Source: Streptosporangium brasiliense
GTDB taxonomy: Bacteria > Actinomycetota > Actinomycetes > Streptosporangiales > Streptosporangiaceae
Reading direction: 5' to 3'
DNA length: 64,000 nt
Assembly (NCBI RefSeq): GCF_030811595.1
Contig: NZ_JAUSRB010000002.1
Coordinates: forward strand, 4,960,001-5,024,000
Part shown: in pieces, positions 8,560 to 37,014 of the stretch
Layout of the letters: every line of letters begins with the position of its first letter
Numbering within the stretch: the first letter of the stretch is position 1
Position numbers and translations under genes: made by a program
Notes under the pieces: model-generated
Seen by the model: the letters and a program-made list of their open reading frames with translations, nothing else
The model's database searches: none
Told to the model about the DNA's origin: nothing

Positions 8560-8563
8560 TGTG

Positions 8564-8992: not shown

Positions 8993-9051
8993 GCCCAAGA
9001 GACGGCCAGGGGCGCCCGGCGTCACCGCGCTCCGGGGTGGACGGAGCGCCG

Positions 9052-10326: not shown

Positions 10327-10681
10327 GGGACAGCCTTCCGGATTGGAGGATCGAGACGGGCCCCAGAGACGGGTGGGCTCCCAAAGGATGCCGACCTGCT
10401 CCGGGGCGCGGCTGGCGGGAAGCGGACCCGGATGTCCGCTCCGTAACGACGTCCGATCTCCGCCACCGCACGGCGGACCGGCCCGGCCGACCACGCATTT
10501 AATGATCTACAACGTAAAGGTGTTGGGCCGGTCAACGGTCACCCCTGGGACGGTGGAGCCCGGTCATGACGGGGATCGGGCCACGGAGGGCGCGGGCCGT
10601 ACCGCCCCCGTGCGCGATCCTCGGCGCCGGGCAGGCCGCCGGAGGAGGCGCTCACGAACCTGGGCGGATAGGGTCCGGGAC
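10327..10681. other. 355-bp divergent promoter region
   Basis: It lies between the MFS gene and the LytS-type kinase gene. An AT-rich patch at about 10498-10522 (ATTTAATGATCTACAACGTA) stands out in the GC-rich surroundings and is the likely promoter/operator of the MFS gene. No gene is supported here. Confidence 0.45.
10669..10674 (+). promoter_or_regulatory. -10 box TAGGGT for the LytS-type kinase
   Basis: TAGGGT ends 7 bases before GTG 10682. No ribosome site is present, so the mRNA is probably leaderless. Confidence 0.5.
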
Positions 10682-11878: not shown

Positions 11879-11993
11879 CGCGCCGCACGCGACCGGCCCC
11901 CGCTCCGGCCCCGTCGCCGATCTCATCCCCGTCGCCGGTCCCGTCACCGGCCCCGTTGCCGTTCTCGTCTCGACGCTGATCCCGTCGCCACTG

Positions 11994-12059
11994 TTGACAC
12001 GTGATGTCTGATTCATCACCCTCTAGGGATTCCCACGTGAGCGATCTGGAGGAGTGACC
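11994..12059 (+). promoter_or_regulatory. Possible promoter/control region of the LytTR operon
   Basis: TTGACA at 11994-11999 is followed by an AT-richer stretch with TGATG-N7-CATCA (12002-12018) and CTAGGGAT (12023-12030). The ribosome site is GGAGGAG at about 12048. The -35/-10 spacing is not standard, so only the presence of a control region is claimed. Confidence 0.35.
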
Positions 12060-14892: not shown

Positions 14893-14930
14893 CGTGATCC
14901 CATTACATGTGTCGGAATGTCCTGTAATCA
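14889..14930 (+). promoter_or_regulatory. Candidate promoter of the YcaO/RiPP locus
   Basis: TTGACG (14889-14894) overlaps the symporter stop codon. It is followed by an AT-richer stretch with ATTACA at 14902-14907 and TGTAAT at 14923-14928, an inverted repeat with 15 bases between. The -10 box is unclear. Confidence 0.4.
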
Positions 14931-14965
14931 AGGGCGTCTCCGTTACTGACGTGAAGGGGTGTGCG

Positions 14966-15106
14966 GTGGGCAACAGCAACTCCAACGGCCAGTCGCTTCT
15001 CCGGCCGGACGGCTTCCAGCTGGAGGACGGCTTCTCGTTCACCCTCGCCGAGCTGCTGCTCCTCGACCAGTTCTTCACCGTGCGGTCCGCGCCGGGCGTG
15101 TTCTGA
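14966..15106 (+). CDS. Candidate RiPP precursor peptide for the YcaO enzyme
   Basis: A 46-residue peptide immediately before the YcaO gene (2 bases between). GTG 14966 is preferred because AAGGGG lies 6 bases ahead; GTG 14951 would give 51 residues. The sequence starts MGNSNSNGQ, has an acidic middle (LEDGFSFTLAEL), a Leu run and ends DQFFTVRSAPGVF. This leader-then-short-tail layout, the size and the position are typical of ribosomally made precursor peptides. It has no Cys; Thr and Ser in the tail are possible targets. No homologue is recognised, so function rests on context. Confidence 0.55.
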   Translation: MGNSNSNGQSLLRPDGFQLEDGFSFTLAELLLLDQFFTVRSAPGVF

Positions 15107-15108
15107 CA

Positions 15109-16533: not shown

Positions 16534-17909
16534 TGTGGGCGGTCCTGCGCCGTCGCCGGTTCCGGATCATCTACTTCGGCATGGTCACCAGCCTGCTGGG
16601 CGACGCCTCGCTGCTGCTGCTCCCGGCGATCCTGGCCAAGAAGTTCACCGGCTCGGACGGCGCGGCGGGGCTGACCCTGTTCTTCTTCACGCTGCCCCTG
16701 TGCCTGTCCCCCCTCCTGGGCCAGGTGATCGACCGGGTCGACCGCAGGAGATTCCTCGTCGCCACGTGCCTGCTGTCGGCGGTCAGCCTGGCCCCGCTGA
16801 CCGCGGTGACCGGCAGGGACACCTTCTGGCTGGTCTACCCGGTGTCGGCGGCCATGGGCTGCTCGTACGCGGCGGTGTCCGGGGCGCTCAGCGGGCTGCT
16901 GAAGAGCGTCCTGCCCGACGACCTCCTCGCCGAGGCCAACGGCGCGCTGCAGACCGCCCGGCAGGGGCTGCGCCTGGTCGGGCCGCTGCTGGGGGTGGCC
17001 GTCTACACCGGCTACGGCATCGGCGCGGTCGTCCTGCTCGACGCGGTCACCTTCCTCGTCGCCGCGGCGGCCTTCGCGGCGCTGCCGGCGCCGCCCCCCG
17101 TCCCGGCCGCGCCGCGCGGCCACCGGCGCGAGGAGTTCTGGGCCGGGGCCCGGCACCTGGTCGCGGACCCGGCCCTGCGGCGCGCGGCCGGGGCGTTCTG
17201 CCTGATGTTCACGCTGGCCGGGATGACCGAGTCGCTGATCTTCGCGGTCATCGACCGGGGCCTCGGCCGGTCCCCGGAGTTCACCGCCCTCACCTCCACC
17301 GCGATGGGCGTGGGGGCGGTCGTCGGCGGGCTGTGCGGAGCCGCGGTGATCGCGCGCCGGGGCGAGCCGGCCGCGATCGGCACGGGCATCGCCCTGTACG
17401 GCGTGGCGGTCATGCTGTGGACGGTCCCCACCGAGGCGGTCGTGCTGGCCGCGATGACGGTGGCGGGCGCCGGCCTGACCCTGGCCGGTGTGGCCAGGAT
17501 GACCCTCGTGCAGCGCCGCAGCCCCGGCCACCTCGTCGGCCGGGTCTCCACCGCCTTCGAGGCCGCGGCCGGGGCCGCCCAACTCCTGTCCCTGGTCGCG
17601 GGCGCGGTACTGGTCTCACTCGTCGACCACCGCGTCCTGCTGGCCGTAGTCGGGCTGACCGTCTGCTGCGCCGCGGCACACGCCCTCCGCGGCCGGCGCC
17701 AACGCGCGCCTGCCGTCACCCCGATGTCGGACGCCTTGATGTCGGACGCCTTGATGTCGGACGCCTTGATGTCGGACGCCTCGATGTCGGACACTCCGGT
17801 GCCGGGCACCTCCCGGGAGGATCCGGCCGCGGTGTCATCCCCGCGACGTACTCCTCAAGGACACGGTCCTGGCCACCGGGGCGGATGCGGCAGAAGGGGG
17901 CAGGCGTGA
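16533..17909 (+). CDS. MFS exporter of the YcaO locus
   Basis: A 458-residue transporter whose ATG overlaps the YcaO stop (TGATG). It has about 12 membrane helices, beginning RRFRIIYFGMVTSLLGDASLLLL, with the loop IDRVDRRRFLV (motif A) and KSVLPDDLLAEANGALQTAR, typical of the MFS_3 group of exporters. The last 60 residues form a soluble tail with five copies of MSDAL-like repeats. Tight coupling suggests it exports the YcaO-modified product or gives self-protection; that is inference. Confidence 0.8.
   Translation: MWAVLRRRRFRIIYFGMVTSLLGDASLLLLPAILAKKFTGSDGAAGLTLFFFTLPLCLSPLLGQVIDRVDRRRFLVATCLLSAVSLAPLTAVTGRDTFWLVYPVSAAMGCSYAAVSGALSGLLKSVLPDDLLAEANGALQTARQGLRLVGPLLGVAVYTGYGIGAVVLLDAVTFLVAAAAFAALPAPPPVPAAPRGHRREEFWAGARHLVADPALRRAAGAFCLMFTLAGMTESLIFAVIDRGLGRSPEFTALTSTAMGVGAVVGGLCGAAVIARRGEPAAIGTGIALYGVAVMLWTVPTEAVVLAAMTVAGAGLTLAGVARMTLVQRRSPGHLVGRVSTAFEAAAGAAQLLSLVAGAVLVSLVDHRVLLAVVGLTVCCAAAHALRGRRQRAPAVTPMSDALMSDALMSDALMSDASMSDTPVPGTSREDPAAVSSPRRTPQGHGPGHRGGCGRRGQA
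17724..17798 (+). repeat. Five 15-bp in-frame tandem repeats at the exporter's C-terminus
   Basis: ATGTCGGACGCCTTG occurs at 17724, 17739 and 17754, with variants at 17769 and 17784. It codes for MSDAL/MSDAS/MSDTP. Confidence 0.92.
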
Positions 17910-25674: not shown

Positions 25675-26463
25675 GGCGTCGCGCCGGCGCAGCACCGCGT
25701 AGCCCGCCGCCACCGCGGCCGCCGCCCACGCGAGCAGCCAGGCCAGTCCCTCACCGGCCGGGTAGGGGATCGGGCCGCCGGTCATGTTCTCGGCGCTGCC
25801 CATGAAGGCCAGCCCCGCGAACATCGGCATGCGCAGCGACGCCTCCAGCGCCGCCTGGCCACCGGCCATCAGGAGCATGAACGGCAGGCCCATCAGCAGC
25901 ATGAACACCACGGTCAGGGTGCCCGCCGCGCTGCGCATCGCGGTGCCCACGCCGAGCGCCATCACCGACACCAGGGCGGAGAAGACGCCCAGGCGCAGCA
26001 GGTCGAGCGCGGTCTCGGCGGGTGGCAGCGCCGCGTAGCCGCCGAACGGACCCGCCGACAGCACCGCGTAGGTGACCACCGTCGCCACGCCGCCGGACAC
26101 CACCCCCGTCGCGAACATCGCCAGCGCCATCACCAGCGCCTTCGCGGCGAGCAGCCGGCCGCGGACCGGCGTCGCCTGCAGCGTGGTGCGGATGCCGCCG
26201 GAGGCGTACTCCGAGGTGATCACCAGCATCGCCAGCGTGACCAGTGCGAACTGGGTGAACGCCGTCGCCGAGATCACCGGCTCGCTCGCGGGGAAGCGTG
26301 TCCCGCCGTCGCGGAGCCTGTCGGTCGCCATGGCGCCGCCCAGCGTCACCGCGCTCAGAACCATGAGCGCGGCCGCGCAGGCCAGGCACCACCAGGTCGA
26401 GCGGACCGACCACAGCTTCGTCCACTCGGCCCCGATCACGTGGCCCAACTCCTTGGCGCCCAT
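25672..26463 (-). CDS. ABC-2 type exporter permease
   Basis: A 263-residue membrane protein with six hydrophobic segments. AEWTKLWSVRSTWW near the N-terminus is the standard opening of actinobacterial ABC-2 permeases; SEYASGGIRTTL follows the second helix. It pairs with the ATPase immediately upstream (3 bases between) to form an exporter. The substrate is unknown; linked NarL-type systems often control antimicrobial or lipid exporters. Confidence 0.87.
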   Translation of the reverse strand: MGAKELGHVIGAEWTKLWSVRSTWWCLACAAALMVLSAVTLGGAMATDRLRDGGTRFPASEPVISATAFTQFALVTLAMLVITSEYASGGIRTTLQATPVRGRLLAAKALVMALAMFATGVVSGGVATVVTYAVLSAGPFGGYAALPPAETALDLLRLGVFSALVSVMALGVGTAMRSAAGTLTVVFMLLMGLPFMLLMAGGQAALEASLRMPMFAGLAFMGSAENMTGGPIPYPAGEGLAWLLAWAAAAVAAGYAVLRRRDA

Positions 26464-26466
26464 CGT

Positions 26467-27381
26467 TCACACCCTCGCTCTCGGCGCGCCGTACTCCACG
26501 CTGCCCGCGGTCAGTTCCTCGTACGCCTGCTCCAGCGAGGCCTCGCGCGCGCTCAGCTCGTGCAGCCGGATGCCCGCCTCGTGCGCCAGGTCGCCGACCT
26601 GCTCAAGGCCGGTGCCGGTGGCGACCAGCTCGTTCTCGCCGCGCCGTTCCACGGTGATCCCGGCGGCGCTCAGCCGTACGGAGAGATCTCCCGCGTGCGG
26701 GCTGCGGACGACCACGGCGGTCAGCGAACTGCGTGCGATCACCTCTGCCAGCGGCGCGTCCATGATGAGCCGGCCCCTGCCGATCACCACCAGGTGGTCG
26801 GCGGTCAACTGCATCTCGCTCATCAGGTGGCTGGAGACGAAGACCGTGCGGCCCTCGTCGGCCAGCGAGCGCATCAGGTGGCGGATCCAGCGCACGCCGT
26901 CGGGATCGAGGCCGTTGACCGGTTCGTCGAACATCAGTACCTCGGGGTCGCCCAGCAGCGCGGCCGCGATGCCGAGCCGCTGGCTCATGCCCAGCGACAG
27001 CGCGCCGGCCCGCCTGCCCGCCGCGCCCGCCATCCCGACCGTTTCGAGGACCTCCTCCACCCGGCTCCTGGCGATGCCGTTGCTGCGCGCCAGCGCCAGC
27101 AGGTGCGCGCGCCCGCTCCGCCCCGGATGCACCGCGCGCGCGTCGAGCAGCGCGCCGACCGTCCGCAGCGGGTCCCTGATCTCGTGGTACGGCAGGCCCC
27201 CGACCAGCGCCACGCCCGCCGTCGGGCGGTCGAGGCCGAGGATCATGCGCATCGTCGTCGATTTGCCCGCCCCGTTCGGCCCGAGGAAGCCGGTGACCGT
27301 GCCCGGTCTCAACTCCAGTGACAGGTCGTCGACGGCCGTCCGGTCGCCGTAGCGCTTGCTCAATCCCCTGAGGCTGATCAT
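26467..27381 (-). CDS. ABC exporter ATP-binding protein
   Basis: A 304-residue ATPase. ATG 27381 is chosen because the nucleotide domain starts there (MISLRGLSKRYGDRTAV). It has Walker A GPNGAGKST, the signature LSLGMSQRLGIAAALL, Walker B VLMFDEPVNGLDP and the H-loop SSHL. The final 80 residues are the usual regulatory tail of DrrA-like proteins. TAGCGT 8 bases ahead suggests a leaderless mRNA starting the exporter operon. Confidence 0.9.
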   Translation of the reverse strand: MISLRGLSKRYGDRTAVDDLSLELRPGTVTGFLGPNGAGKSTTMRMILGLDRPTAGVALVGGLPYHEIRDPLRTVGALLDARAVHPGRSGRAHLLALARSNGIARSRVEEVLETVGMAGAAGRRAGALSLGMSQRLGIAAALLGDPEVLMFDEPVNGLDPDGVRWIRHLMRSLADEGRTVFVSSHLMSEMQLTADHLVVIGRGRLIMDAPLAEVIARSSLTAVVVRSPHAGDLSVRLSAAGITVERRGENELVATGTGLEQVGDLAHEAGIRLHELSAREASLEQAYEELTAGSVEYGAPRARV

Positions 27382-27389
27382 GTGGGCCA

Positions 27390-27395
27390 ACGCTA
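27390..27395 (-). promoter_or_regulatory. -10 box TAGCGT for the ABC exporter
   Basis: TAGCGT on the minus strand ends 8 bases before ATG 27381, with no ribosome site between. Confidence 0.5.
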
Positions 27396-27635
27396 GGCAG
27401 CGGCGGGCCCGCCCACCATGGGGGCGGGCCGCCGAGCCGTATGGCGGATAACCGTAACGCGCCCGGCTTTTTGCCTGTCCGCGCAGGTCACGGGCCGTTC
27501 CGCGGCCGCCTGGCAAGAAGCGGTCAGCCGCGGACAGCATGCTGACACCGGAATATCTGGTCTGTGAATGCCGGTGGGCGCAGAGTTGGTTGTGCGAGAA
27601 CAGAAACAACCACAGCCCGAGGAGAGGAGTTGAAA

Positions 27636-27704
27636 ATGAACATCTCAGTCACCTGCCCGGCCGACTTCAATGTCGGAGCGGTGTCGGACCGGGTCCCGTT
27701 ATGA
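27636..27704 (+). CDS. Small ORF (22 codons) heading the biosynthetic cluster
   Basis: AGGAGAGGAG lies 5-6 bases before ATG 27636. The encoded peptide is MNISVTCPADFNVGAVSDRVPL, then TGA. In the same frame a further 26 sense codons follow up to TGA 27783-27785, with protein-like composition (AFLGARGWKFIGYADA). It could be a leader peptide, a small structural peptide, or the start of a gene broken by a stop. No family is recognised. Confidence 0.35.
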   Translation: MNISVTCPADFNVGAVSDRVPL

Positions 27705-27801
27705 GATGCCGCCGCATTTCTGGGAGCCCGAGGTTGGAAATTCATCGGCTACGCGGACGCGAGGCGACGCCGGCTATTTATGTGAGGAGGTTGGAGAGTC
27801 C

Positions 27802-29310
27802 ATGGAGCCAACGGCTTCGGTGATCACGAAACTGATCGAGCACGCACGGATACGTCCCACCGCGCCCGCGTTGATATGGTGCGGGAAAGAGACGAGTTAC
27901 GCCGAGTTGTGCGACATGATGTGGGGAGCATATTCCGAGGTAAGAGAGTTGAGCTCTGGTCCACTGGGCATTCTCGCCCGTAAGTCGCCGAGGGCGATCG
28001 GTCTGCTCCTCGGTGCCATGCTGGACCGCCGGAGCTTTCTCGTCCCGTCGCCCGGTCTGCCGGAGAGCACGCTGCGCGGGCTGTTCACGCAGGCCCGTTG
28101 CACGCATGTGGTGTCGCCGGACGACAACTGGGACGCGGCCCGGGAGAGCATGGTCGCGCAGGTGATGCGGGTGGAGCCGGGATCCCCGGGCTCCGCCGCG
28201 GCGCCGGTGGGACCGGACGACCCGGACCAGGTCTCGTTCATGCTCACCACCTCGGGCTCCACCGGACTGCCCAAAATCGTCCCGTTGACGGTGGGGGCGG
28301 TCGACCGGTTCGCCGACTGGGCGCACGACCGGTTCGACCTCGGCCCCGGCCGTTCCGTGCTCAACTACGCCCCCCTCAACTTCGACCTGTGCCTGCTCGA
28401 CATCTGGGCGACGCTCAAGCAGGGCGGCTGCGTGGTGCTGGTCGATCCGGACCAGGCCACGAACGCCCGCTCGCTGTTCGACCTGCTGGCCGACCACCCG
28501 GTGGACGTCATCCAGGCGGTGCCCATGCTGTACGGGCTGCTGACGGACGCCGCCAGGCAGACCGGCGAGCAGGTGTACGCCACCCAGCACGTCATCTTCA
28601 CCGGCGACGCGATACAGCCGGGATGCCTGGCGGAGCTGCCCAAGCTGTTCCCGGAGGCGAATTTCTACAACCTCTACGGCTGCACGGAGACCAACGACAG
28701 TTTCATCCACCGGGTGGACGTCGAGTCGGAGCGGCTCTCCCCGCTCCCCCTGGGGGAGCCGCTGCCCGGGGTGGAGGCCCTGCTCGTGACCGATGACGGC
28801 GGAGTCCTGACCGGTCCGGGGACGGGTGAGCTGTATGTGACCACACCGTTCCAGACCACCGGATACCTCAACGCCTCACTCGACGACAAGTTCGTCGAGC
28901 ATCCCGGGCGGCCGGACGGCCGGCGCTATTTCCGCTCCGGAGACCTGGTGCGCAGGCACCCGGACGGCCGGCTCACGCTTGAGGGGCGCAACGACTTCCA
29001 GGTGAAGATCCGGGGTCAGCGGGTCAACACGCAGGAGGTCGAACAGGCGCTCCTGGCACACGGCCAGGTCCTGGAGGCGGCGGTGGTCGCCATCCCCGAT
29101 CCCCGGGCGGGCCACCGGCTGCACGCCGCTCTCCGGCGGCGTCCCGACAGCGGGCTGAACAGCCTGGAGATCCGCCGGCACTGCGCCGGCCGGCTCCCCG
29201 GAGCGGGCATCCCCTCGACGGTGCAGATCGTCGACGGTCCGCTCCCCAGGACCTCCACAGGAAAGATCGATCGTAACCACATCAAATCCATCCAGACAGA
29301 GGCGGCATGA
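27802..29310 (+). CDS. Stand-alone adenylation enzyme (NRPS A-domain type)
   Basis: A 502-residue AMP-forming ligase of single A-domain length. Core motifs are TSGSTGLPKIVPLT (A3, about 154-167), FDLCLLDIW (A4; the Asp after Phe is the residue that holds an amino group), NLYGCTETND (A5), RSGDLVRRHPDGRL (A7), FQVKIRGQRVN (A8) and RTSTGKIDRN with the catalytic Lys (A10). ATG 27802 follows GGAGG and GGAGAG. It is followed within 2 bases by a carrier protein, so it probably loads an amino acid onto it. The substrate cannot be read reliably. Confidence 0.87.
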   Translation: MEPTASVITKLIEHARIRPTAPALIWCGKETSYAELCDMMWGAYSEVRELSSGPLGILARKSPRAIGLLLGAMLDRRSFLVPSPGLPESTLRGLFTQARCTHVVSPDDNWDAARESMVAQVMRVEPGSPGSAAAPVGPDDPDQVSFMLTTSGSTGLPKIVPLTVGAVDRFADWAHDRFDLGPGRSVLNYAPLNFDLCLLDIWATLKQGGCVVLVDPDQATNARSLFDLLADHPVDVIQAVPMLYGLLTDAARQTGEQVYATQHVIFTGDAIQPGCLAELPKLFPEANFYNLYGCTETNDSFIHRVDVESERLSPLPLGEPLPGVEALLVTDDGGVLTGPGTGELYVTTPFQTTGYLNASLDDKFVEHPGRPDGRRYFRSGDLVRRHPDGRLTLEGRNDFQVKIRGQRVNTQEVEQALLAHGQVLEAAVVAIPDPRAGHRLHAALRRRPDSGLNSLEIRRHCAGRLPGAGIPSTVQIVDGPLPRTSTGKIDRNHIKSIQTEAA

Positions 29311-29311
29311 A

Positions 29312-29560
29312 ATGGACAATGCGACGACCATCAAGAAATTCATTCTGAGTGAATTTCTGCCCGACGTGGGGGCCGGCGAGCTCGACTCCGACTACGACCT
29401 GCTGAACGGCGGGATAGTCGACAGTCTCGGCCTGCTCCGGGTCATCGAATGGCTGGAGATCCAGTTCCAGCTGGATTCCGACACGATCGAACTGACCCCG
29501 GACAACTTCCGGACGATCAACAGGATATCGGCCCTCGTCGACACGGCGGGCCGGGCCTGA
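29312..29560 (+). CDS. Acyl/peptidyl carrier protein
   Basis: An 82-residue four-helix carrier protein. GGIVDSLGLLRVIEWLE carries the Ser (in DSL) for the phosphopantetheine arm at about residue 39. It starts 1 base after the stop of the adenylation gene, so the two are surely a pair. Its helix 2 is rich in Leu/Ile/Glu as in free-standing carrier proteins that present an amino acid to a flavin dehydrogenase. Confidence 0.9.
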   Translation: MDNATTIKKFILSEFLPDVGAGELDSDYDLLNGGIVDSLGLLRVIEWLEIQFQLDSDTIELTPDNFRTINRISALVDTAGRA

Positions 29561-29721
29561 ATCCGGGCCGGCACGACAGTCGATCCGAATGAGCGGCGCC
29601 CCGCGGCCCGGATGAGCGGCGGCCCGCAGACCAGGTGAACGGACGGCGCGCCATCAATGCGGACATCGGCGCGCGGATCAAATGAACGGACATTGAACGC
29701 ACAGACTAAGGAGCAGAAATC
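29561..29721 (+). other. Spacer with short GATGAGCGGCG repeats
   Basis: GGATGAGCGGCGGCCCGC-like elements occur at about 29588 and 29610, and TGAACGGAC at about 29635 and 29682. AAGGAG precedes the next gene. No gene is seen. Confidence 0.5.
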
Positions 29722-30096
29722 ATGATCGTTCGAGACCTCAACGAGTCGAAGACCGTCGACTGGGGGAACGGCCTGAGCCGGCGTTTCCTGCTGGAGTCGG
29801 ACGGAATGGGATACACCCTCACCGACACCATCGTCTACGCCGGGACGAAGTCCCATCTTGAGTATCGCAACCACCTGGAAGCGTGCTACTGCATCGAGGG
29901 CAGCGGAGAGGTGATCGACCTCCAGGGGAACTCCTACCCGATCACACCGGGGACGATCTATGCCCTTGACCTGCATGACGCCCACTACCTCATCGCCTCT
30001 CCCCACGAGGACCTGCGGCTGGTCTGCGTCTTCTCTCCCGCGCTCAGAGGCGACGAGCGGCACAGCCTGGACGCCGCGGAGTTCTCCCACTACTAG
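29722..30096 (+). CDS. ectC: Ectoine-synthase-like cupin (EctC family)
   Basis: A 124-residue cupin with clear EctC similarity: MIVRDLNESKTVDW, RFLLESDGMGYTLTDTIVYAG, HLEACYCIEGSGEVIDL and GTIYALDLHDAHYL. The three residues known to hold iron in EctC are kept (Glu53, Tyr80, His88). EctC closes N-acetyl-diaminobutyrate to ectoine and can also cyclise glutamine. No ectA, ectB or ectD is present here; the neighbours are an A domain, carrier protein and flavin dehydrogenase, so a different substrate is likely. AAGGAG lies 10 bases ahead of the ATG. Slightly shorter than osmolyte EctC proteins (about 130). Confidence 0.85.
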   Translation: MIVRDLNESKTVDWGNGLSRRFLLESDGMGYTLTDTIVYAGTKSHLEYRNHLEACYCIEGSGEVIDLQGNSYPITPGTIYALDLHDAHYLIASPHEDLRLVCVFSPALRGDERHSLDAAEFSHY

Positions 30097-30207
30097 GACC
30101 CGCCCGCGGTGGGACTCCCGGCGGTCACCTACCAGGACCCGCCCGCGGTGGGACTCCCGGCGGTCACCTACCAGGACCCGCCCGCAGTGGGACTCCCGGC
30201 GGTCACC
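30095..30207 (+). repeat. Three 39-bp tandem repeats after ectC
   Basis: The unit starting AGGACCCGCCCGCGGTGG is repeated at 30095, 30134 and 30173 (last copy partial, one base changed). The first copy overlaps the ectC stop codon. Confidence 0.92.
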
Positions 30208-30222
30208 GCCGGGGTCCCACTG
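30185..30222 (+). promoter_or_regulatory. Strong stem-loop between ectC and the dehydrogenase gene
   Basis: CAGTGGGAC-T-CCCGGCGG pairs with CCGCCGGGGTCCCACTG: 17 pairs, one bulged T, loop TCA. No T-run follows, so it may be an attenuator or an mRNA-stability element rather than a simple terminator. It is built from the third tandem repeat plus new sequence. Confidence 0.7.
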
Positions 30223-30275
30223 CTACCCGGCAAGACACTCCTATCCGTACCCGGCAAGACACTCCTACCCGGCAA
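30223..30275 (+). repeat. Repeats of CCCGGCAAGACACTCCTA
   Basis: TACCCGGCAAGACACTCCTA occurs twice in full, with a third partial copy running into GGCAAGAAAGGAGG, the ribosome site of the dehydrogenase gene. The array may have grown from that site. Confidence 0.8.
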
Positions 30276-30289
30276 GAAAGGAGGCAGCG

Positions 30290-31429
30290 ATGGTCAAGTG
30301 GACCGAAGACCAGCGCGACCTGCGCGACGGACTCGCCCAATGGTTCACGGCGCTCAACGACGGCCATCTGGAGCGGGACAAGAACGCCGTCTTCGACGGA
30401 GACAAATGGAAGATCATCCGCGAGTCGGGGATCCTGTCGCTCCCGTTCGAGGAGCAGTGGGGCGGCCTCGGCCAGGATCTGCTCACCACCATGTACGTCC
30501 TGGAGGGGCTCGGCCACGGCTCCCGTGACGGCGGCCTCAGCTTCTCGGTGACCACCCACATGGTGAGCACCGGAGTGCCCCTCCAGCGGTTCGGATCGGC
30601 CGACCTCAAGGCCCGCTACCTGCCGGGCGTCTGCGACGGGACCACGATCGGCGCGCACGCCATCAGCGAGCCGGACAGCGGTTCCGACGCGCTGAAGATG
30701 CGGACCACCGCCAGGCGCGAGGGGGACCGGTGGATCCTGTCGGGCAGCAAGACCTTCGTCAGCAACGCCCCCGTCGCCGACCTGTTCGTGGTCTACGCCC
30801 GCACCCATCCCGACGGCGGGCCGCTGGGCATCACAGCCTTCCTCGTCGAGCGGGACACGCCGGGCCTCACCGTGGGCAAGCCCATCGACAAGATGGGGCT
30901 GAAGACCTCTCCGATCGCCGAGCTCTTCTTCGACGAGTGCGCGGTCCCGGCGGCCAACGTGATCGGCCGCCCGGGGGCCGGATTCCTGGTGCTCGACCAC
31001 GTGATGAAGTGGGAGATCCTCTGCTCCTTCATCGTGAACGTCGGGGAGATGCAGCACCGTCTGGAGCGGTGCGTGGACTACGCCAAGCAGCGGACCCAGT
31101 TCGGGAAGCCCATCGGCTCGTTCCAGTCGATCGCCAACAAGATCGTCGACATGAAGATCGGCGTGGAGAACGCGCGCCGATGGCTCTACGAAACCGCCTC
31201 CCGCCTGATGAACAACGAGAACGTCACCGTCGACGTCGCCATCAGCAAGCTGCTCGCGAGCGAGGCCAACCTCTCCTCCGCACTGGCCGCGGTGCAGATC
31301 TTCGGCGGCAACGGATATATGGCGGAATTCGGCCTGGAAAGGGATCTGAGAAACGCCGTCGGCGGGACCATCTACTCCGGGACGACCGACATCCAGCGCA
31401 ATCGAGTGGCCGCGATGATGGGCCTCTGA
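30290..31429 (+). CDS. Acyl-CoA-dehydrogenase-type flavoprotein, probably acting on a carrier-bound substrate
   Basis: A 379-residue FAD enzyme: HAISEPDSGSDALKM (about 123-137), GSKTFVSNAPVAD, and the C-terminal helical domain with KQRTQFGKPIGSFQ. The usual catalytic Glu is Ser363 in IYSGTTDIQRNRVA. Instead Glu242 (in MKWEILCSF) aligns with the alternative base of isovaleryl-CoA dehydrogenase, as in prolyl-carrier-protein dehydrogenases such as those of pyrrole pathways. Together with the A domain and carrier protein this suggests desaturation of a carrier-bound amino acid. ATG 30290 follows AAAGGAGG. Confidence 0.85.
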   Translation: MVKWTEDQRDLRDGLAQWFTALNDGHLERDKNAVFDGDKWKIIRESGILSLPFEEQWGGLGQDLLTTMYVLEGLGHGSRDGGLSFSVTTHMVSTGVPLQRFGSADLKARYLPGVCDGTTIGAHAISEPDSGSDALKMRTTARREGDRWILSGSKTFVSNAPVADLFVVYARTHPDGGPLGITAFLVERDTPGLTVGKPIDKMGLKTSPIAELFFDECAVPAANVIGRPGAGFLVLDHVMKWEILCSFIVNVGEMQHRLERCVDYAKQRTQFGKPIGSFQSIANKIVDMKIGVENARRWLYETASRLMNNENVTVDVAISKLLASEANLSSALAAVQIFGGNGYMAEFGLERDLRNAVGGTIYSGTTDIQRNRVAAMMGL

Positions 31430-31470
31430 GAATCAGCCAACCAATTCTACAGGACAAGGACGAAGACGAA

Positions 31471-32145
31471 ATGACTCTTCAGCTTGACGAACTCTGCCGG
31501 CCGACCGAATTCCTCGACCACGAGTCCTCCACCGTGCGCGAATTCGTCTCACGGGCTCTGGGCGACGCCGAGCTCGGCCCCAACGAGAAGGCCATCAAGC
31601 TGTACTACGCGGTCCGCGACGGGATCCGCTACGAGGTCTACGGGAGCGACCTGTCGCGGGCCGGCCTCAAGGCCAGCGCGATCATCGACAGGGGGAGCGG
31701 GTTCTGCGTCCACAAGTCGCTGGTCTACGCGACCGCGCTGCGGGCCGTCGGGATCCCCAGCCGCATCGTGATGGGCGACGTGCGCAACCACCTGGCGTCG
31801 GACCGGCTGAGGGAGCTCGTCGGCGGTGACCTCTTCCGCTTCCACAGCCTGACCCAGGTCAATCTGGACGGGCGCTGGGTCAAGGCCACGCCGGTGTTCA
31901 ACAAGACGCTGTGCCGCCTGTATCGCATCGCCCCGCTCGAATTCGACGGCACGGCCGACAGCGTTTACCACCCCTTCGACGAGGACGGCCGCCGGCACAT
32001 GGAATTCGTGCACTGGCACGGCGAGTTCGACGACTTCCCCTACGAGCTCGTCGTCAACGGGATCCGTGAGGCTCATCCCCGGCTCTTCCAGAGCTCGCAC
32101 ACCACCAAGGAGGGCTCCCTGGTGGAGGAGGCCGCGGCGCGGTAG
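31471..32145 (+). CDS. Transglutaminase-like (papain-fold) enzyme
   Basis: A 224-residue protein with the transglutaminase-like core: nucleophile region RGSGFCVHKSLVYATALRA (Cys near residue 77), AVGIPSRIVMGDVRNH, and His in FRFHSLTQVNLDGRW followed by VKATPVFN, where Thr stands near the usual Asp. Members of this fold can hydrolyse peptides or form amide bonds from carrier thioesters (AdmF in andrimid assembly). In this setting release or amide formation is plausible. AAGGA lies about 11 bases ahead of ATG 31471. Confidence 0.78.
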   Translation: MTLQLDELCRPTEFLDHESSTVREFVSRALGDAELGPNEKAIKLYYAVRDGIRYEVYGSDLSRAGLKASAIIDRGSGFCVHKSLVYATALRAVGIPSRIVMGDVRNHLASDRLRELVGGDLFRFHSLTQVNLDGRWVKATPVFNKTLCRLYRIAPLEFDGTADSVYHPFDEDGRRHMEFVHWHGEFDDFPYELVVNGIREAHPRLFQSSHTTKEGSLVEEAAAR

Positions 32146-32203
32146 GGCACGGCAGACCGGTTTTTTCCTTTCGTAATTTTGTTTCAGATGACTGGAGCTT
32201 TTG

Positions 32204-33568
32204 ATGATTAATCGAGTCAGGTACCAGCTCACCGAGGCCGATATTCCGCAGACCTGGTACAACCTGGCCGCCGATCTGCCCGACATGGCGCCGCCGATCA
32301 ATCCGCGGACCGGTCAGCCGATCACCCGGGAGGACATGAAGCGGACGATGCCCGATGCGCTCATCGAGCAGGAGTTGAGCAAGGAGCGGGAGTTCGAGAT
32401 CCCCGAGCCCGTCCGGCAGGTTTACGCGCAGTGGCGGCCCACCCCCATGTTCCGCGCCCGCCGGCTCGAGCAGGCTCTGGGGACCCCCGCGCGCATCTAC
32501 TACAAGTACGAGGGCGACGCGCCCACCGGCAGCTTCAAGCCCAACAGTGCCATCGCCCAGGCCTACTACAACAAGGAGGCCGGCAAGACGCTGCTGGTCG
32601 CCGACACCGGCGCCGGTCAGTGGGGGAGCGCGGTGGCCTTCGCCGCCAAGCTCTTCGACATGTCCGCGAAGGTCTACCAGGTGAAGGTGAGCTACCAGCA
32701 GAACCCGCACCGGCGTGCCCTCATGGAGACCTTCGGGGCCACCTGCGTGCCCAGCCCGAGCACCGAGACCGAGGCCGGCCGGGCGATCCTCGCCGAGAAC
32801 CCGGACCATCCCGGGAGCCTGGGCGTCGCCAAGTCCGAGGCGCTGCAGACGGTCTTCGACAACCCCGAGGCGGCCTACACGCGCGGCAGCGCCAGCAACC
32901 ACGTCTGCGCGCACCAGACGGTGATCGGGCAGGAGGCGATACGCCAGATGGAGCTGGCCGAGGACTACCCCGACATCGTGATCGGCTGCTCGGGCGGCGG
33001 GAGCAACCTCGCGGGTCTGTCGTTCCCCTTCCTCGGCGCGAAACTGCGCGGTGGCCGGGACCTGCGGATCGTCGCCGTCGAGCCGGTCGCCTGCCCGACG
33101 CTGACCCGGGGCCGCATCGCCTACGACTACGCGGACTCCGGTGGCCTGACGCCGCTGTACCGCATGCACACGCTGGGCCACACGTTCGTCCCGCCGCCCG
33201 TGCACGCCGGAGGGCTGCGCGCCCACGGCATCGCGCCGCTGGTCAGCAGGGCGGTGGAGGAGGGGCACATCGAGGCGGTCGCGGTGACCCAGACCAGCTG
33301 CTTCGAGGCCGGCGTGCAGTTCCTGCACGCCGAGGGCATCCTGCCGGCGCCGGAGTCCACGCACGCGGTCCGCGTCGCGATCGACGAGGCGATCCGGTGC
33401 CGGGAGGAGGGCGAGTCCCGGGCGATCCTGTTCGGCCTGACCGGCCACGGCTACTTCAACCTCTCCGCCTACGAGCGGTACTTCGCCGGCACGCTGCCGG
33501 ACGACGCCCTCTCCGACGACGTCCTCGACCACGGCCTGGCGAGCATCCCCGAGCTGGCCCTCGTCTAG
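32204..33568 (+). CDS. TrpB2-like PLP-dependent enzyme
   Basis: A 454-residue fold-type II PLP enzyme of the TrpB2 group (long N-terminus with YNLAADLPDMAPPINPRTGQPI). Schiff-base Lys112 is in GDAPTGSFKPNSA; phosphate-binding loop CSGGGSNLAGL near residue 263; C-terminal LFGLTGHGYFNLSAYE. The TrpB catalytic Glu of the ETGAGQ motif is Asp134 here (VADTGAGQWG), so normal tryptophan synthesis is doubtful. No trpA is nearby. In this cluster it may make a non-protein amino acid by beta-replacement or elimination. GGAG lies 6 bases ahead of ATG 32204, in an unusually T-rich leader. Confidence 0.85.
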   Translation: MINRVRYQLTEADIPQTWYNLAADLPDMAPPINPRTGQPITREDMKRTMPDALIEQELSKEREFEIPEPVRQVYAQWRPTPMFRARRLEQALGTPARIYYKYEGDAPTGSFKPNSAIAQAYYNKEAGKTLLVADTGAGQWGSAVAFAAKLFDMSAKVYQVKVSYQQNPHRRALMETFGATCVPSPSTETEAGRAILAENPDHPGSLGVAKSEALQTVFDNPEAAYTRGSASNHVCAHQTVIGQEAIRQMELAEDYPDIVIGCSGGGSNLAGLSFPFLGAKLRGGRDLRIVAVEPVACPTLTRGRIAYDYADSGGLTPLYRMHTLGHTFVPPPVHAGGLRAHGIAPLVSRAVEEGHIEAVAVTQTSCFEAGVQFLHAEGILPAPESTHAVRVAIDEAIRCREEGESRAILFGLTGHGYFNLSAYERYFAGTLPDDALSDDVLDHGLASIPELALV

Positions 33569-33763
33569 GGACGCGCTCCATGGATCTCCACCCCAGCGCG
33601 GATCGGCCGGACGGCCGCCCCACCCGGGCGCGGGCGCTCATGACGCGGTCATGGGCGGACGGCGTGGCGGGGCGGCCGTCCGGCCGGCCGCGGCAGGCGG
33701 CAGGGGCCACGGGACACACCCTGAGCGGCAGAGCCTCCGACACCACCAAGAGAGAGAATTGAG

Positions 33764-34747
33764 ATGAAACGTTCGAGTGTCTTGCAGTTCCTCCTCCTCG
33801 GGCTCATCTGGGGAGGGAGCTATACCTTTATCAAGATCTCGCTCGACGGGCTGACGCCGGCCCTGCTGGTGTTCGTCCGGATCGTCCTGGGGGCCGTGGT
33901 CCTGCTCGCCTTCGTGGGCCTGCGCCGGGTGCGGATCCCGGCCTTCGGCGCCATCTGGGGACACATCGCCGTCGCCGCGATCCTCGGCATGGTCGCCCCC
34001 TTCCTCCTGCTGGCCTGGGGGGAGCGCTACACCAGCGCCGCCATGGCCGGTGTGATCATCGCCGCGCTCCCGCTGCTCACGCTCGTGGCCGTGTGGATCC
34101 TGCTGCCGTCGGAGAAGACGACCCGGCGGAAGCTCGCCGGCTTCCTGCTGGGATTCGCCGGAGTGGTCCTGATCATCGCCCCGTGGAACAGCGACGCCGG
34201 ATCCCTGACCGGGCAGCTCGCGGTGCTGGGGGCCGCGGCCTGCTACGCCGCCCAGACCGTCTACGTCCGGCGCTTCCTCCTGCAGCACGGCCTGGCCCCG
34301 CTCGCGCTCGCCGCCTCGCAGCTCGTCGCCGCGACCCTGCTGCAGGGGGCGGTGCTGCCCTTCACGCCCTGGCAGACCCCCACGCTCAGCTGGCCGGTGG
34401 TCACGAGCATCGTGATCCTGGGCGCCATCGGCACCGGCCTGGCCTACGTGCTCTACTTCCGGCTCATCAGCGACCTCGGAGCCACCTCCGCCTCCGCGGT
34501 GAACTACCTGGTCCCCGTGGTCGGCATGCTCACCAGCACCCTGCTCCTGGGCGACACGGTGACCTGGAACATGGTGGTGGGCGTCGTGGCCGTCCTGATC
34601 GGCCTGGCCGCCGCCGAGAACCGCCTGGCCTCGCTCCGCCCGCGTCCCCCGGCGGAGGCGGACCCCGGGCCGCCCCCTCCGGCGCCGGCGAGCACGGAGC
34701 GCGCGCCCTCCCTTCCCTCCGTCCGGGTGGGAGGCGGCGATGACTGA
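33764..34747 (+). CDS. EamA/DMT-family transporter
   Basis: A 327-residue protein with ten transmembrane helices in two EamA repeats (about 5-140 and 150-290), starting FLLLGLIWGGSYTFIKISLDG and with the second-half motif NYLVPVVGMLTSTLLLGD. The last 40 residues are Pro/Ala-rich and soluble. EamA proteins export amino acids and metabolites. Its ends overlap the following gene by 8 bases, so it belongs to the cluster and is the likely product exporter. Confidence 0.85.
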   Translation: MKRSSVLQFLLLGLIWGGSYTFIKISLDGLTPALLVFVRIVLGAVVLLAFVGLRRVRIPAFGAIWGHIAVAAILGMVAPFLLLAWGERYTSAAMAGVIIAALPLLTLVAVWILLPSEKTTRRKLAGFLLGFAGVVLIIAPWNSDAGSLTGQLAVLGAAACYAAQTVYVRRFLLQHGLAPLALAASQLVAATLLQGAVLPFTPWQTPTLSWPVVTSIVILGAIGTGLAYVLYFRLISDLGATSASAVNYLVPVVGMLTSTLLLGDTVTWNMVVGVVAVLIGLAAAENRLASLRPRPPAEADPGPPPPAPASTERAPSLPSVRVGGGDD

Positions 34748-35558
34748 CCTGGCCGGCCCGCACCGGGCCAAGGAGCGCACCGACAGCTCGGGGTGGCGGG
34801 CACGCTTCGGCATCCTCGTCATCGACAAGGACCCCGTCCCCGAATCGGAGTTCTGGGCGATGGCGCCGGCCGGGGTGACCGTCCACGCCGCCCGCTTCGC
34901 CAGCCCCCGCCAGGCCGGGACCGACGCCTACGACAGGCCCGGCACGGCGGTGGCGGAGTCCCCGGACATCGCCCGCGGCCTCGACCAGCTCGGTCACATC
35001 GGCCTCGACGCGATCTGCCTCTGCTTCGTCACCGGCAGCTTCCTGGGCGGACCCGGCTTCGACGAGCGGTTCGCGCAGGAGGCCTCCCGCAAGGCGCACG
35101 GCACGCCCGTCATCACGGCGGCGCAGGCGCTGGTGACCGCCATGCGGGAGCTGGACGTCAAACGCCCCCTGCTGGTCATCCCTCCCTGGTTCAAGGCGGC
35201 CATCGCTCAGGAGGCGGAGCGGTACTTCGCCGCGGCCGGCTTCCACGTCGCCGGGACGCTCCCCTTCGACCTGGGGATCGGGTGGCGGGAGCTGCAGCCG
35301 TGGGAGATCTGGGACAGCCAGGGCCAGCGGCACGTCCGGCCCGAGGACCTCTACCACCAGGTCCGCCGGTCGATCTCGGCCGACGTGGACGGGATCGCCG
35401 TCGTGGGCAACGGCCTGCGCTCCATCGAGGCCATCGAACTGCTCGAGCGGGACCTGGGCCTGCCGGTCGTCACCTCCAACCAGGCCGCGCTCTGGCACAG
35501 CCTGAGAACGGCGGGCATGACCGCCTCCCTGCCGAACTGGGGCCGTCTGCTCTCCTAG
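34740..35558 (+). CDS. Asp/Glu racemase-superfamily protein (maleate isomerase/AMDase-like), cysteines altered
   Basis: A 272-residue protein of the arylmalonate decarboxylase/maleate isomerase type. Alignment anchors are DAICLCFVTGSFLGGPGFDERF (residues about 94-115), KRPLLVIPPW, GIAVVGNGLRSIEAIELLE and GLPVVTSNQAALWHSLR. Where typical members have ACTSGSF, this one has CFVTGSF, and where they have SCTNLR it has VGNGLR, so neither usual catalytic Cys is in place, though Cys lies next to the first. The chemistry may be changed or lost. It ends the biosynthetic cluster. Confidence 0.75.
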   Translation: MTDLAGPHRAKERTDSSGWRARFGILVIDKDPVPESEFWAMAPAGVTVHAARFASPRQAGTDAYDRPGTAVAESPDIARGLDQLGHIGLDAICLCFVTGSFLGGPGFDERFAQEASRKAHGTPVITAAQALVTAMRELDVKRPLLVIPPWFKAAIAQEAERYFAAAGFHVAGTLPFDLGIGWRELQPWEIWDSQGQRHVRPEDLYHQVRRSISADVDGIAVVGNGLRSIEAIELLERDLGLPVVTSNQAALWHSLRTAGMTASLPNWGRLLS

Positions 35559-35821
35559 CCCCCGGACCGCCCCTCCTAGCCCCCGGACCGCCCCTCCCGG
35601 CCCGGACCGCCCCTCCTGGCCCGGACCGCCGCCGGAGACGGCGGCGGCACCGGAAGGGAGGAGGGGGCCTGCGCTCCGGACAGGCACCGGGGCCTGCGCT
35701 CCCGGACAGGCACCGGAAGGGAGGACGAGGGGTCCCGCGCTCCCGGACAGGCGCCGGATCCGGCCCGATGCGGAGCGGCCGTCCGCGGCGCCGGCGGTCC
35801 GTGCCTGTCGCCGCGCGCGGC
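35559..35821. repeat. GC-rich repeat spacer between convergent genes
   Basis: TAGCCCCCGGACCGCCCCTCC-like units are repeated about four times (35556-35630), followed by repeats of GGCCTGCGCTCCCGGACAGGCACCGG (35668-35755). No gene is supported; the region may hold the cluster's terminator. Confidence 0.6.
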
Positions 35822-36406
35822 TCAGGCGCCCGGGTCTCCGTTGAGGACGTGCGTCACCCATTCCAGCGGGCCGGTACGGAGCGCCTCCTCCGCGAGGCGT
35901 TTCGCCGAGGCCGTCTGCAGGGCGGCGAGCGAGCTGTCGATCCACGGCTGGACGGTCCGGTGACCCTGCTCCCGATACTCGACGGCCTGGATGAGGCATT
36001 CCAGCTTGTCGGCGTCGCGGGCGCAGCGGGCTTCGAGGCTGGTCTTCTCCTCGTACTCGCCGACCGCGCCGCCGATGACCTCGGCGACGGCCGAGGGGAC
36101 GCCGCGCGTCTGGTCGGCGGTGACCTCCTCGTTGGAGGCCGTCTTGAGGTAGCGCTTGGCGAGGTAGGGGATGTCGGTGATCCGCGTCTCCTGGGAGTCG
36201 TGGAACAGGCTCATGAACGCCGCGCGCTCGGGGTCGCCGCCCTCCATCGCCGCGATCACGGTCGCGATGACGGCCGCCCGGAAGGAGTGGTCGGCGATGC
36301 TCTCGGGGTCTCGCACGCCCGCGACCAGCCACCCCGTGCGCCGGTAACGCTTGAGCAGCCCCATCTCGTACAGCAGGCCCGTCAACCTGGCCAGTTCCTC
36401 CTCCAT
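35822..36406 (-). CDS. HD-domain phosphohydrolase (YfbR/5'-nucleotidase-like)
   Basis: A 194-residue HD-domain protein. Metal-binding residues are in SIADHSFRAAV, LFHDSQETRITDIP and RDADKLECLIQAVEY. This pattern matches YfbR-type deoxynucleotide 5'-phosphatases and related HD hydrolases. ATG 36406 follows AAAGGGG on the minus strand. It points toward the cluster's end and is probably a separate housekeeping gene. Confidence 0.83.
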   Translation of the reverse strand: MEEELARLTGLLYEMGLLKRYRRTGWLVAGVRDPESIADHSFRAAVIATVIAAMEGGDPERAAFMSLFHDSQETRITDIPYLAKRYLKTASNEEVTADQTRGVPSAVAEVIGGAVGEYEEKTSLEARCARDADKLECLIQAVEYREQGHRTVQPWIDSSLAALQTASAKRLAEEALRTGPLEWVTHVLNGDPGA

Positions 36407-36669
36407 GGTGTCCCCTTTCACCCTCGATGGACCATGGGTAGACCATCCCCCCAGCCCGCCCACGGAACCCCGGCGACACGCCGTTCTCGACGGAGGCCGT
36501 CCTGGACCGGTGGACCGTTCACCGCACCGGATGGACCTTTCACCGCAAGTCATGCCCAACTGACCGCGACCCGGCGCCACCTGGGCGAAGAGTCCGTCCC
36601 CGGGTCTCCTCCCGGGGTACGGTCCCTCCTACGTTGGCCGTGATCCAGATCACATTCATGGGAGGTCAT
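36407..36669. other. Divergent intergenic region with direct repeats
   Basis: CCGGTGGACCGTTCACCGCA and a near copy lie back to back at about 36509-36550. Downstream are TACGTT (36630-36635, possible -10) and the CRP-like palindrome. Confidence 0.45.
36640..36653 (+). promoter_or_regulatory. CRP/FNR-type palindrome GTGATC-CA-GATCAC
   Basis: The 14 bases are a perfect palindrome with the GTGA-N6-TCAC core recognised by CRP-like regulators. It lies 17-30 bases before the DUF485/acetate symporter operon. Acetate permease genes are known CRP targets in several bacteria. Binding is inferred. Confidence 0.5.
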
Positions 36670-37014
36670 GTGACCGCCAGGCAACATGATTCATCTGTCT
36701 ACGAACAGATTCAGGGTGACGCGAGGTTCCAGGAGCTGAAGCGGCGCTTCCGGTCGTGGGCCTTCCCGATGACCGCGGCGTTCCTGGCGTGGTACCTGCT
36801 CTACGTGGTGCTGTCCGCCTGGGCGCGTGACTTCATGGGCGCCAAGGTGCTGGGCAACATCAACGTGGCGCTGATCTTCGGTCTGCTCCAGTTCGTGTCG
36901 ACGTTCCTGATCGCCTGGGCCTACTCCCGATACGCCGAGAAGAAGCTTGACCCGGTGGCCGACGAGATCCGTCACGAGGTGGAGGAAGAGACCGTGGAGG
37001 AAGAGGTCGTATGA
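36670..37014 (+). CDS. DUF485 membrane protein
   Basis: A 114-residue protein with the DUF485 pattern: VYEQIQGDARFQELKRRFRSW, two transmembrane helices (AFLAWYLLYVVLSAWA and NVALIFGLLQFVSTFLIAWAYSRYA) and an acidic Glu-rich end. These proteins are encoded before ActP-type symporters and probably assist them. GTG 36670 follows GGGAGGT (short spacing); ATG 36658 is the alternative. Its stop overlaps the symporter start (ATGA). Confidence 0.85.
   Translation: MTARQHDSSVYEQIQGDARFQELKRRFRSWAFPMTAAFLAWYLLYVVLSAWARDFMGAKVLGNINVALIFGLLQFVSTFLIAWAYSRYAEKKLDPVADEIRHEVEEETVEEEVV

Follow-up and report, generated by a model that had tools for sequence, protein, structure and literature searches.

A compact gene cluster of Streptosporangium brasiliense that may join a showdomycin-type aminopyrrole module to a TrpB2-like enzyme

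Introduction

Streptosporangium brasiliense carries eight genes on one strand that bring together a stand-alone adenylation (A) enzyme, a carrier protein, a relative of the ectoine synthase EctC, a flavin dehydrogenase, a transglutaminase-fold (TG) enzyme, a TrpB2-like enzyme, an EamA exporter and an EutA-like protein, and the question raised by this locus is what such a set could make. The genes lie on the plus strand between positions 27636 and 35558 of the window, by which we mean the whole analysed stretch of 64,000 nucleotides (assembly GCF_030811595.1, contig NZ_JAUSRB010000002.1, positions 4,960,001 to 5,024,000). On balance, and with its details uncertain, we incline to the view that the cluster is an aminopyrrole module of the showdomycin type with the TrpB2-like enzyme acting on the aminopyrrole. 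That the module takes glutamine to an aminopyrrole acid is very probable by analogy with showdomycin, and, if it does, the chance that TrpB2 then couples this acid to serine may be put at about even.

As the preliminary description had stated, the eight genes share one strand, and all were intact, with open frames and no internal stops. The gene names given there mostly agreed with Pfam and NCBIfam models. The genes are as follows.

27802-29310, plus strand: A enzyme, stand-alone adenylation, pocket code D-L-L-Q-I-T-L-D-S (Pfam AMP-binding, 3.8e-41, and AMP-binding_C)
29312-29560, plus strand: carrier protein (T), stand-alone, 82 aa, Ser in NGGIVDSLG (NCBIfam carrier models, below cut-off)
29722-30096, plus strand: EctC-like cupin cyclase, proposed glutamine cyclase (PF06339 Ectoine_synth, 8.1e-38; NF009806, 144.1 bits against a cut-off of 128)
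30290-31429, plus strand: flavin acyl-carrier dehydrogenase, PigA/RedW type, base E242 (acyl-CoA dehydrogenase N, M and C domains)
31471-32145, plus strand: TG enzyme of the transglutaminase/arylamine N-acyltransferase (NAT) fold, thought of as the step that frees the carrier-bound aminopyrrole carboxylate or passes it on (PF01841 Transglut_core, 1.4e-14)
32204-33568, plus strand: TrpB2-like pyridoxal phosphate (PLP) enzyme, proposed to join aminopyrrole and serine-derived aminoacrylate (PALP, 9.5e-42; NF009057, TIGR01415)
33764-34747, plus strand: predicted EamA exporter (PF00892, two stretches, 2.8e-39)
34740-35558, plus strand: EutA/arylmalonate-decarboxylase-like protein (PF17645 Amdase, 2.4e-16; TIGR02990, below cut-off)

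Linkage of the module genes in related loci

A collection of species genomes was scanned with two peptide patterns, which gave 414 matching stretches, 401 of them encoding a relative of the EctC-like protein, and the best 80 of the 401 loci were retrieved together with flanks of at most 10 kb on each side (loci are cited by L numbers). Genes were counted from tblastn matches with bit-score limits that we set, and gene calls in the fetched loci were crude, being based on G+C at third codon positions. The 80 loci were picked by EctC, many of the Streptomyces rows are closely related, and the Fisher tests carry no correction for kinship.

Within 10 kb of the EctC-like gene, a dehydrogenase was found in 77 of the 80 loci, a carrier in 77 and an A gene in 73 (74 at a plain E-value limit); some of the missing genes fall at contig ends. 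The co-occurrence of A, carrier, EctC-like, dehydrogenase and TrpB2-like genes across genomes, which had been put forward as a check, was thus seen in this linkage, and the idea of a compact biosynthetic cluster is right or likely. All eight genes in window order were recovered from Actinophytocola oryzae (L010) and Hamadaea tsunoensis (L069). In A. xanthii (L026), the set lacked EamA, a LysE-type exporter gene was close by, and the TrpB2 and EutA-like genes were divergent.

The commonest arrangement (49/80 loci) was A, T, TrpD, TrpA, EctC, acyl-CoA dehydrogenase (ACAD), TrpF and TrpC, where Trp denotes homologues of tryptophan-pathway enzymes, and three loci had the order A T TrpD TrpA EctC ACAD TG TrpB2 TrpF TrpC, with L078 holding most of it. 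Two Streptomyces plasmid records were of the TrpD/TrpA/TrpF/TrpC type by their NCBI annotation, and an Aliiroseovarius plasmid carries a related gene set. Loci of the commonest type (L003-L082, e.g. L132:8059-15089) often add ketosynthase, MaoC and BioF-like genes. Their Trp-like proteins, viewed by eye in one representative each, appear to keep the catalytic motifs, and perhaps these loci encode a parallel tryptophan-like pathway in which a non-anthranilate starter gives a pyrrolopyrrole instead of indole.

Among plasmid records with an EctC match (best 60 of 120, near-identical ones included), the dehydrogenase gene was next to the EctC gene in 20 of the 23 records of at least 57% EctC identity, and in 4 of the 37 below 57% among the matches listed. 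The three unlinked plasmids of the 23 belonged to S. albogriseolus (dehydrogenase about 85 kb off on the same record), Mycetohabitans and Gloeothece. On the Gloeothece (L127:4772-11083) and Mycetohabitans (L126:5009-12366) plasmids, EctC-like genes of about 64% identity had no module dehydrogenase nearby, and their neighbours were desaturase, GNAT, tryptophan halogenase and HpaB genes in the former and a nonribosomal peptide synthetase gene in the latter. A different orphan context was seen on Rhizobium etli plasmid pB (L129:6001-10804), where EctC (53%) precedes genes for saccharopine-dehydrogenase-like and D-Ala-D-Ala-ligase-like proteins, and many rhizobial plasmids carry EctC matches similar to this one. 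Of 30 loci taken at order level, each some 3.4 kb long, the more distant L107, L108 and L116-L120 gave no match to A, carrier or dehydrogenase. Module linkage is therefore the mark of an EctC subfamily and not of every EctC outside ectABC.

Wider sampling at E <= 1e-45 covered 396 genomes of the phylum, two of which, that of the window included, held the EctC subfamily, and 394 genomes of the class, in which the EutA-like protein was confined to the window's own; neither search yielded a new locus of the window type. No description of the gene set was found in titles and abstract openings of the open-licence literature.

The EctC-like protein and the ectoine question

The EctC-like protein fits the ectoine synthase fold family and is the only PF06339 protein of the genome. 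Its iron ligands E53, Y80 and H88 were invariant in all 81 aligned rows including the window, which bears out the retention of the Glu-Tyr-His metal site noted at the outset. Two further active-site residues of ectoine synthase are not kept at their places: the position of Asn38 in P. lautus EctC, which contacts the substrate carboxylate (PMC6344544), is Thr34 in 80 of the 81 rows, and the place of Trp21 is taken by Gly17 in the window, with an invariant Trp three residues earlier. The absence of ectA and ectB, first noted for the cluster, extended to the whole genome (completeness 99.64%), in which EctA had no match at E <= 1e-3 and none of 12 EctB model matches rose above the cut-off, the best reaching 196.7 bits where 552.2 are required; 14 control genomes matched this model too.

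These data bear on whether the locus is an ectoine-like osmolyte cluster or the remnant of one. The EctC-like protein does exceed the cut-off of the ectoine synthase subfamily, and a solitary EctC of P. syringae gave ectoine in an H. elongata ectC mutant (PMC5924519). However, the genome has neither an EctA match nor an EctB above the cut-off, the counterparts of Asn38 and Trp21 are displaced, and the partner genes encode carrier-dependent enzymes, so that we regard this alternative as extremely improbable. An ectoine or osmolyte role was rejected on the missing EctA and EctB together with the active-site changes. The suggestion that the protein acts on a substrate other than that of ectoine synthase is right or likely.

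From L-glutamine, the EctC of H. elongata forms 5-amino-3,4-dihydro-2H-pyrrole-2-carboxylate very inefficiently, the equilibrium favouring glutamine (PMC5924519), and the function of solitary or orphan EctC proteins has been described as unresolved (PMC5924519, PMC6344544, PMC3979721). In a tree of 111 rows and 124 columns, the presumed ordinary EctC rows L119 and L120 were set apart from the subfamily by a long branch, many forks lacked resolution, and L112, L114 and L115-L118, which are unlinked or linked only in part, fell inside the subfamily on long branches. As far as these alignments go, the tree shows divergence rather than a clean single origin. A phylogeny placing this EctC outside the ectABC clade had been named as a check, and it was obtained in part: the substrate residues differ and the subfamily stands apart from L119 and L120, but other EctC rows fall inside it.

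The A enzyme and the dehydrogenase

The pocket positions of the A enzyme were placed by hand from known A-domain motifs. The pattern DLLQ-x-[TS]-x-DS was present in 70 of 73 aligned relatives, the count being restricted to the 73 of the 80 loci whose A match reached E <= 1e-50, and the exceptions were DLFQ twice (once in L010) and DVLQ once; an earlier tally had left out an unrelated AMP-binding protein of L024 (TMNYVSG-P). Residues Gln238, Asp299 and Ser300 (numbered as in the window enzyme) were kept in 73/73, and the code was common to the window and to the TrpD-type and C-glycosynthase-type siblings, including a Burkholderia C-glycosynthase cluster. Because the code is near-invariant, the A enzymes of the module probably share one substrate. 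The carrier protein had no Pfam match and reached NCBIfam carrier models only below their cut-offs. Amino acid loading by these two proteins, as originally proposed, is right or likely, and the A pocket is predicted to take a glutamine-type substrate.

Of the relatives with solved structures, the prolyl enzyme PltF was one of the closest to the A enzyme. The two pockets have D-L-L in common and then part, with Y, L, A, L and V in PltF against Q, I, T, L and D in the window. Such a polar version of a proline-type pocket would suit glutamine or its cyclic amidine. The best NCBIfam matches of the dehydrogenase were the PigA and prolyl-carrier dehydrogenase models, and its base E242 was found in 78/78 rows including the window. 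The assignment to the prolyl-carrier type is thus right or likely for the catalytic base and the pyrrole-type chemistry, but probably not for proline as the substrate, the A pocket being unlike that of PltF; by analogy, the dehydrogenase probably acts on the cyclic amidine of glutamine.

In the PigA, RedW and PltE/PltF/PltL pathways, a stand-alone A enzyme, a carrier and an oxidase resembling acyl-CoA dehydrogenases also work together, and a classical pyrrole-2-carboxyl route, in which L-proline would be loaded and oxidised to the pyrrolyl-carrier while EctC acts elsewhere, has to be weighed here. It would account for the model scores of the dehydrogenase and for the kinship with PltF. Against it, both dehydrogenase matches lie under the curated cut-offs, the pocket differs from that of PltF at the side-chain positions while Gln238, Asp299 and Ser300 never vary, and EctC and the dehydrogenase stay together in nearly all of the loci, chosen as these were by EctC. 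The window moreover adds an EctC-like cyclase to the proline-type set. We regard the proline route as improbable, and it was rejected on the predicted specificity of the A pocket in comparison with PltF.

The showdomycin parallel

In the route proposed for showdomycin of Streptomyces showdoensis, SdmE cyclises L-glutamine, SdmC activates 2-amino-1-pyrroline-5-carboxylate and SdmD carries it; oxidation, hydrolysis and the action of SdmA and SdmB are followed by non-enzymatic decarboxylation, deamination and redox steps (PMC8724604). The same source describes the pathway as incompletely understood and the sdm cluster as the outcome of a search started from AlnA and AlnB (PMC8724604). By predicted role, the window holds together a cyclase, an A enzyme, a carrier, an oxidase and a releasing enzyme, which parallels the glutamine cyclase, A, carrier, oxidation and hydrolysis leading to the aminopyrrole acid in showdomycin. 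It differs in having no C-glycosynthase and, instead, a TrpB2-like enzyme and an EamA exporter. The earlier statement that the cluster matched no described one was therefore modified: the part from A and carrier through EctC and dehydrogenase to TG fits the showdomycin route by role, and the TrpB2/EamA part differs.

The same five-gene module is joined by a C-glycosynthase and a phosphatase in three siblings. L080 (S. lincolnensis; 8104-16386) and L076 (S. geranii; 8096-16553) combine it with a PsuG-like C-glycosynthase, a HAD phosphatase and an EutA-like gene, L080 also having a major facilitator superfamily (MFS) exporter, and L130 on a Burkholderia stagnalis plasmid (4891-14336) carries A, carrier, EctC, dehydrogenase, TG, PsuG, HAD, MFS and EutA-like genes. 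All three appear to be showdomycin-like clusters. Among solved structures, AlnA came closest to the L080 PsuG-like protein, and no S. showdoensis entry was among the 120 matches listed for that protein. Inside the window cluster no PsuG/Indigoidine_A C-glycosynthase was found, so that it does not class as a showdomycin-type (YeiN-like) C-nucleoside cluster. The genome has a single PF04227 gene, about 66 kb away from the cluster, whose product shares 43% identity with the L080 enzyme; the gene adjoins a pfkB kinase gene, as in pseudouridine catabolism, and a C-glycosynthase acting in trans was rejected on this ground.

The TG enzyme and the fate of the carrier-bound unit

Cys79 and His125 of the TG enzyme were present in 23/23 rows, and Thr140 occupies the position where an Asp is usual. 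A fold search with the AlphaFold model (pLDDT 91.5, 25-row alignment) returned 18 matches at E <= 0.001; the amide synthase GdmF was one of them, and arylamine N-acyltransferases and a putative cysteine protease were others, with TM values of 0.36-0.53. The TG gene never occurred together with an AOS-like extension gene (0/22), which was found in 33 of the 58 loci without TG. The TG loci held all 7 TrpB2 cases, all 6 EutA-like cases and 7 of the 8 UbiD cases, and four of them had a ketosynthase match. Because TG avoids the AOS-like gene and gathers the TrpB2, EutA-like and UbiD cases, the carrier-bound unit seems to have two fates, chain extension or release, with TG as the off-loading branch. 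The sibling UbiD genes had been considered as support in the form of pyrrole-2-carboxylate decarboxylases; this was dropped, as their nearest solved relatives are protocatechuate decarboxylases and the PA0254 type matched more weakly.

AdmF of andrimid biosynthesis is a precedent for off-loading, and either release or AdmF-type joining had been envisaged for the window enzyme, which shares the transglutaminase/NAT fold with AdmF and GdmF. In the joining version, TG of the same module would link the carrier-bound aminopyrrole carboxyl to an amine, namely an unusual amino acid made by TrpB2 from some other nucleophile. The nearest folds suit this version, as do loci such as L016, L017 and L042, in which TG stands without a UbiD, EutA-like or TrpB2 match, and the presence of TG in every TrpB2 locus is explained equally well. 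On the other hand, the proposed showdomycin route closes its carrier stage by hydrolysis (PMC8724604), and the TrpB2 clade of the module spans clusters with and without TrpD-type genes, which fits an aminopyrrole or a bicycle as the nucleophile. We consider the joining version rather unlikely; hydrolytic release fits at least as well, and by analogy with showdomycin the window TG is probably a hydrolase, unlike AdmF and GdmF.

TrpB2, EamA and the EutA-like protein

The TrpB2-like protein passed both family cut-offs (NF009057, 653.5 bits against 366; TIGR01415, 573.9 against 518.85) and keeps the PLP lysine, K112. In the TrpB2 tree, eight module-linked sequences, including one from Roseomonas, grouped together in a clade with 100/99 support, and eight further TrpB2 sequences from the order, the genome's second copy among them, fell outside it. 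Within the clade, the window, L010, L069 and L026 made up a subclade (100/99), and in the first three of these F111 replaces His. Because the module-linked sequences form a clade of their own apart from the other copy in the genome, the enzyme looks specialised and tied to the module, with or without TrpD-F-C-A-like partners, and its suggested role in making a non-protein amino acid is right or likely.

The three loci that combine TrpD, TrpA, TG, TrpB2, TrpF and TrpC raise the alternative that the window is an incomplete member of that type, supplied with the remaining functions from elsewhere in the genome, and that TrpB2 receives a bicyclic indole stand-in. However, the module TrpD finds matches of no more than 32% and 29% identity in the genome (TrpF, TrpC and TrpA were not searched genome-wide), and L010, L069 and L026, whose TrpB2 proteins group with that of the window, have the same reduced set within 10 kb. 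We hold this alternative to be quite improbable, slightly more so than the proline route; supply of TrpD in trans was rejected at the best identity of 32%. In the TrpD-type siblings themselves, the nucleophile of TrpB2 would be a bicycle built on the aminopyrrole.

Another PLP enzyme was seen beside the module in Nonomuraea (L077:3461-11234), where the module is followed by a frame with Cys/Met-metabolism PLP and EamA domains and by a GARS-like ATP-grasp ligase. This arrangement may be the counterpart, working by gamma-substitution, of the TrpB2 branch.

The EamA gene is found in the same place in L010 and L069, and export, its predicted function, is right or likely as first suggested. The EutA-like protein is encoded in the C-glycosynthase-type siblings L076, L080 and L130 as well as in TrpB2-type modules. 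The preliminary label of racemase-like proved too loose for it. Asp/Glu racemases and maleate isomerases rely on a pair of catalytic cysteines, and this pair was not found in the nine aligned members including the window, the second Cys being absent in 9/9 and the first in 2/9. The protein is better called EutA/arylmalonate-decarboxylase-like, and perhaps it handles a reactive ring.

Proposed route

The first four steps are known in outline from the showdomycin review, where they are proposed; their assignment to the window, and the two steps after them, we infer. The EctC-like cupin would close L-glutamine, free or carrier-bound, to the five-membered amidine 2-amino-1-pyrroline-5-carboxylate (step 1), and the A enzyme would activate the amidine and load it on the carrier (step 2). 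The PigA-like flavoenzyme would then desaturate it, tautomerisation giving an aromatic 2-aminopyrrole-5-carboxyl thioester, and this aromatisation would pull the unfavourable cyclisation forward (step 3). The TG-fold enzyme would free the aminopyrrole acid (step 4), which TrpB2 may add as a nucleophile to the PLP-bound aminoacrylate from serine to give an aminopyrrolyl-alanine (step 5; C8H11N3O4, 213.075, if the carboxylate is retained). EamA would export the product, which on the showdomycin analogy may autoxidise, decarboxylate and deaminate to maleimidyl-alanine (step 6; C7H8N2O4, 184.048).

Several points weigh against this proposal. The match with showdomycin rests on gene roles and not on sdm sequences, and the available text of the review neither calls SdmE EctC-like nor names the oxidising and hydrolysing proteins (PMC8724604). 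Its order of cyclising before loading leaves the A substrate, glutamine or amidine, undecided (PMC8724604), and the A enzyme of the related Aliiroseovarius set has a different code, DLLHLAIDT. TG occurs in only 22 of the 80 loci, its fold matches are modest, and its family is very common (7,737 of 8,000 scored candidates match). In TrpB2, F111 for His and, in the window and L010, D134 for Glu could mean a different reaction, and the EutA-like protein has no step in the route.

A broader reading is held tentatively, as somewhat less probable than not. It takes the window as the amino acid counterpart of showdomycin, with TrpB2 linking the aminopyrrole from glutamine to serine through a carbon-carbon bond and a maleimide amino acid forming in air, and one EctC-dependent module as the feeder of several bond formers, namely the C-glycosynthase, TrpB2, the Cys/Met-type PLP enzyme and the TrpD-TrpF-TrpC-TrpA set building a pyrrolopyrrole, through carbon or nitrogen bonds.

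Surroundings of the cluster

The left flank holds ABC-transporter and two-component genes and the right flank an HD-domain gene, all on the opposite strand, and because of this the eight genes are a natural unit. The gaps between them, in gene order, are 1, 161, 193, 41, 58, 195 and -8 bp. Measured in 2-kb steps, G+C was 66.6-69.4% across 26-34 kb and 74.0% at 34-36 kb, which covers the last two genes; of the window's 32 steps, 20 were at or above 70%, and further dips occurred elsewhere. In a survey of 16 genomes of the genus, an EctC match (E <= 1e-25) was found in two and a TG match in one, the window's own, a rarity that would fit recent acquisition of the cluster.

The region first delimited does contain the eight-gene cluster, but its start at 27636 is that of a 22-aa open reading frame ahead of the A gene (27636-27704; MNISVTCPADFNVGAVSDRVPL), which has a strong ribosome-binding site and stops 97 bp upstream of that gene. 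Across the 80 loci its relatives were limited to scattered matches, none better than E 0.57 among the first 15 matches listed, and no similar frame was seen upstream of A in eight loci inspected, some with estimated A starts. A precursor of a ribosomally synthesized and post-translationally modified peptide, or a leader, with a conserved counterpart was rejected on these values, and the frame may be a leader peptide or chance. A 39-bp unit is repeated three times (97% matches) at 30090-30207, between the EctC-like and dehydrogenase genes, and a second repeat array follows the last gene at 35552-35630. No known RNA family reached its gathering score within 26000-37000.

Implications

The linkage gives a large subgroup of orphan EctC proteins a specific candidate reaction, from glutamine to a cyclic amidine for carrier-dependent aminopyrrole formation. 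Oxidation to an aromatic ring would be a way in which an unfavourable side reaction of EctC could become useful, and an EctC-dependent module supplying aminopyrrole, if the broader reading is true, would account for part of the orphan EctC proteins. For genome mining, the A code DLLQ-x-[TS]-x-DS together with the EctC motif W-G-[NA]-G and Thr34 may serve as a signature of products derived from aminopyrroles or maleimides. Together with its dedicated TrpB2, the module would represent a new route to a reactive non-protein amino acid, and an amino acid bearing a maleimide could attack thiols after uptake.

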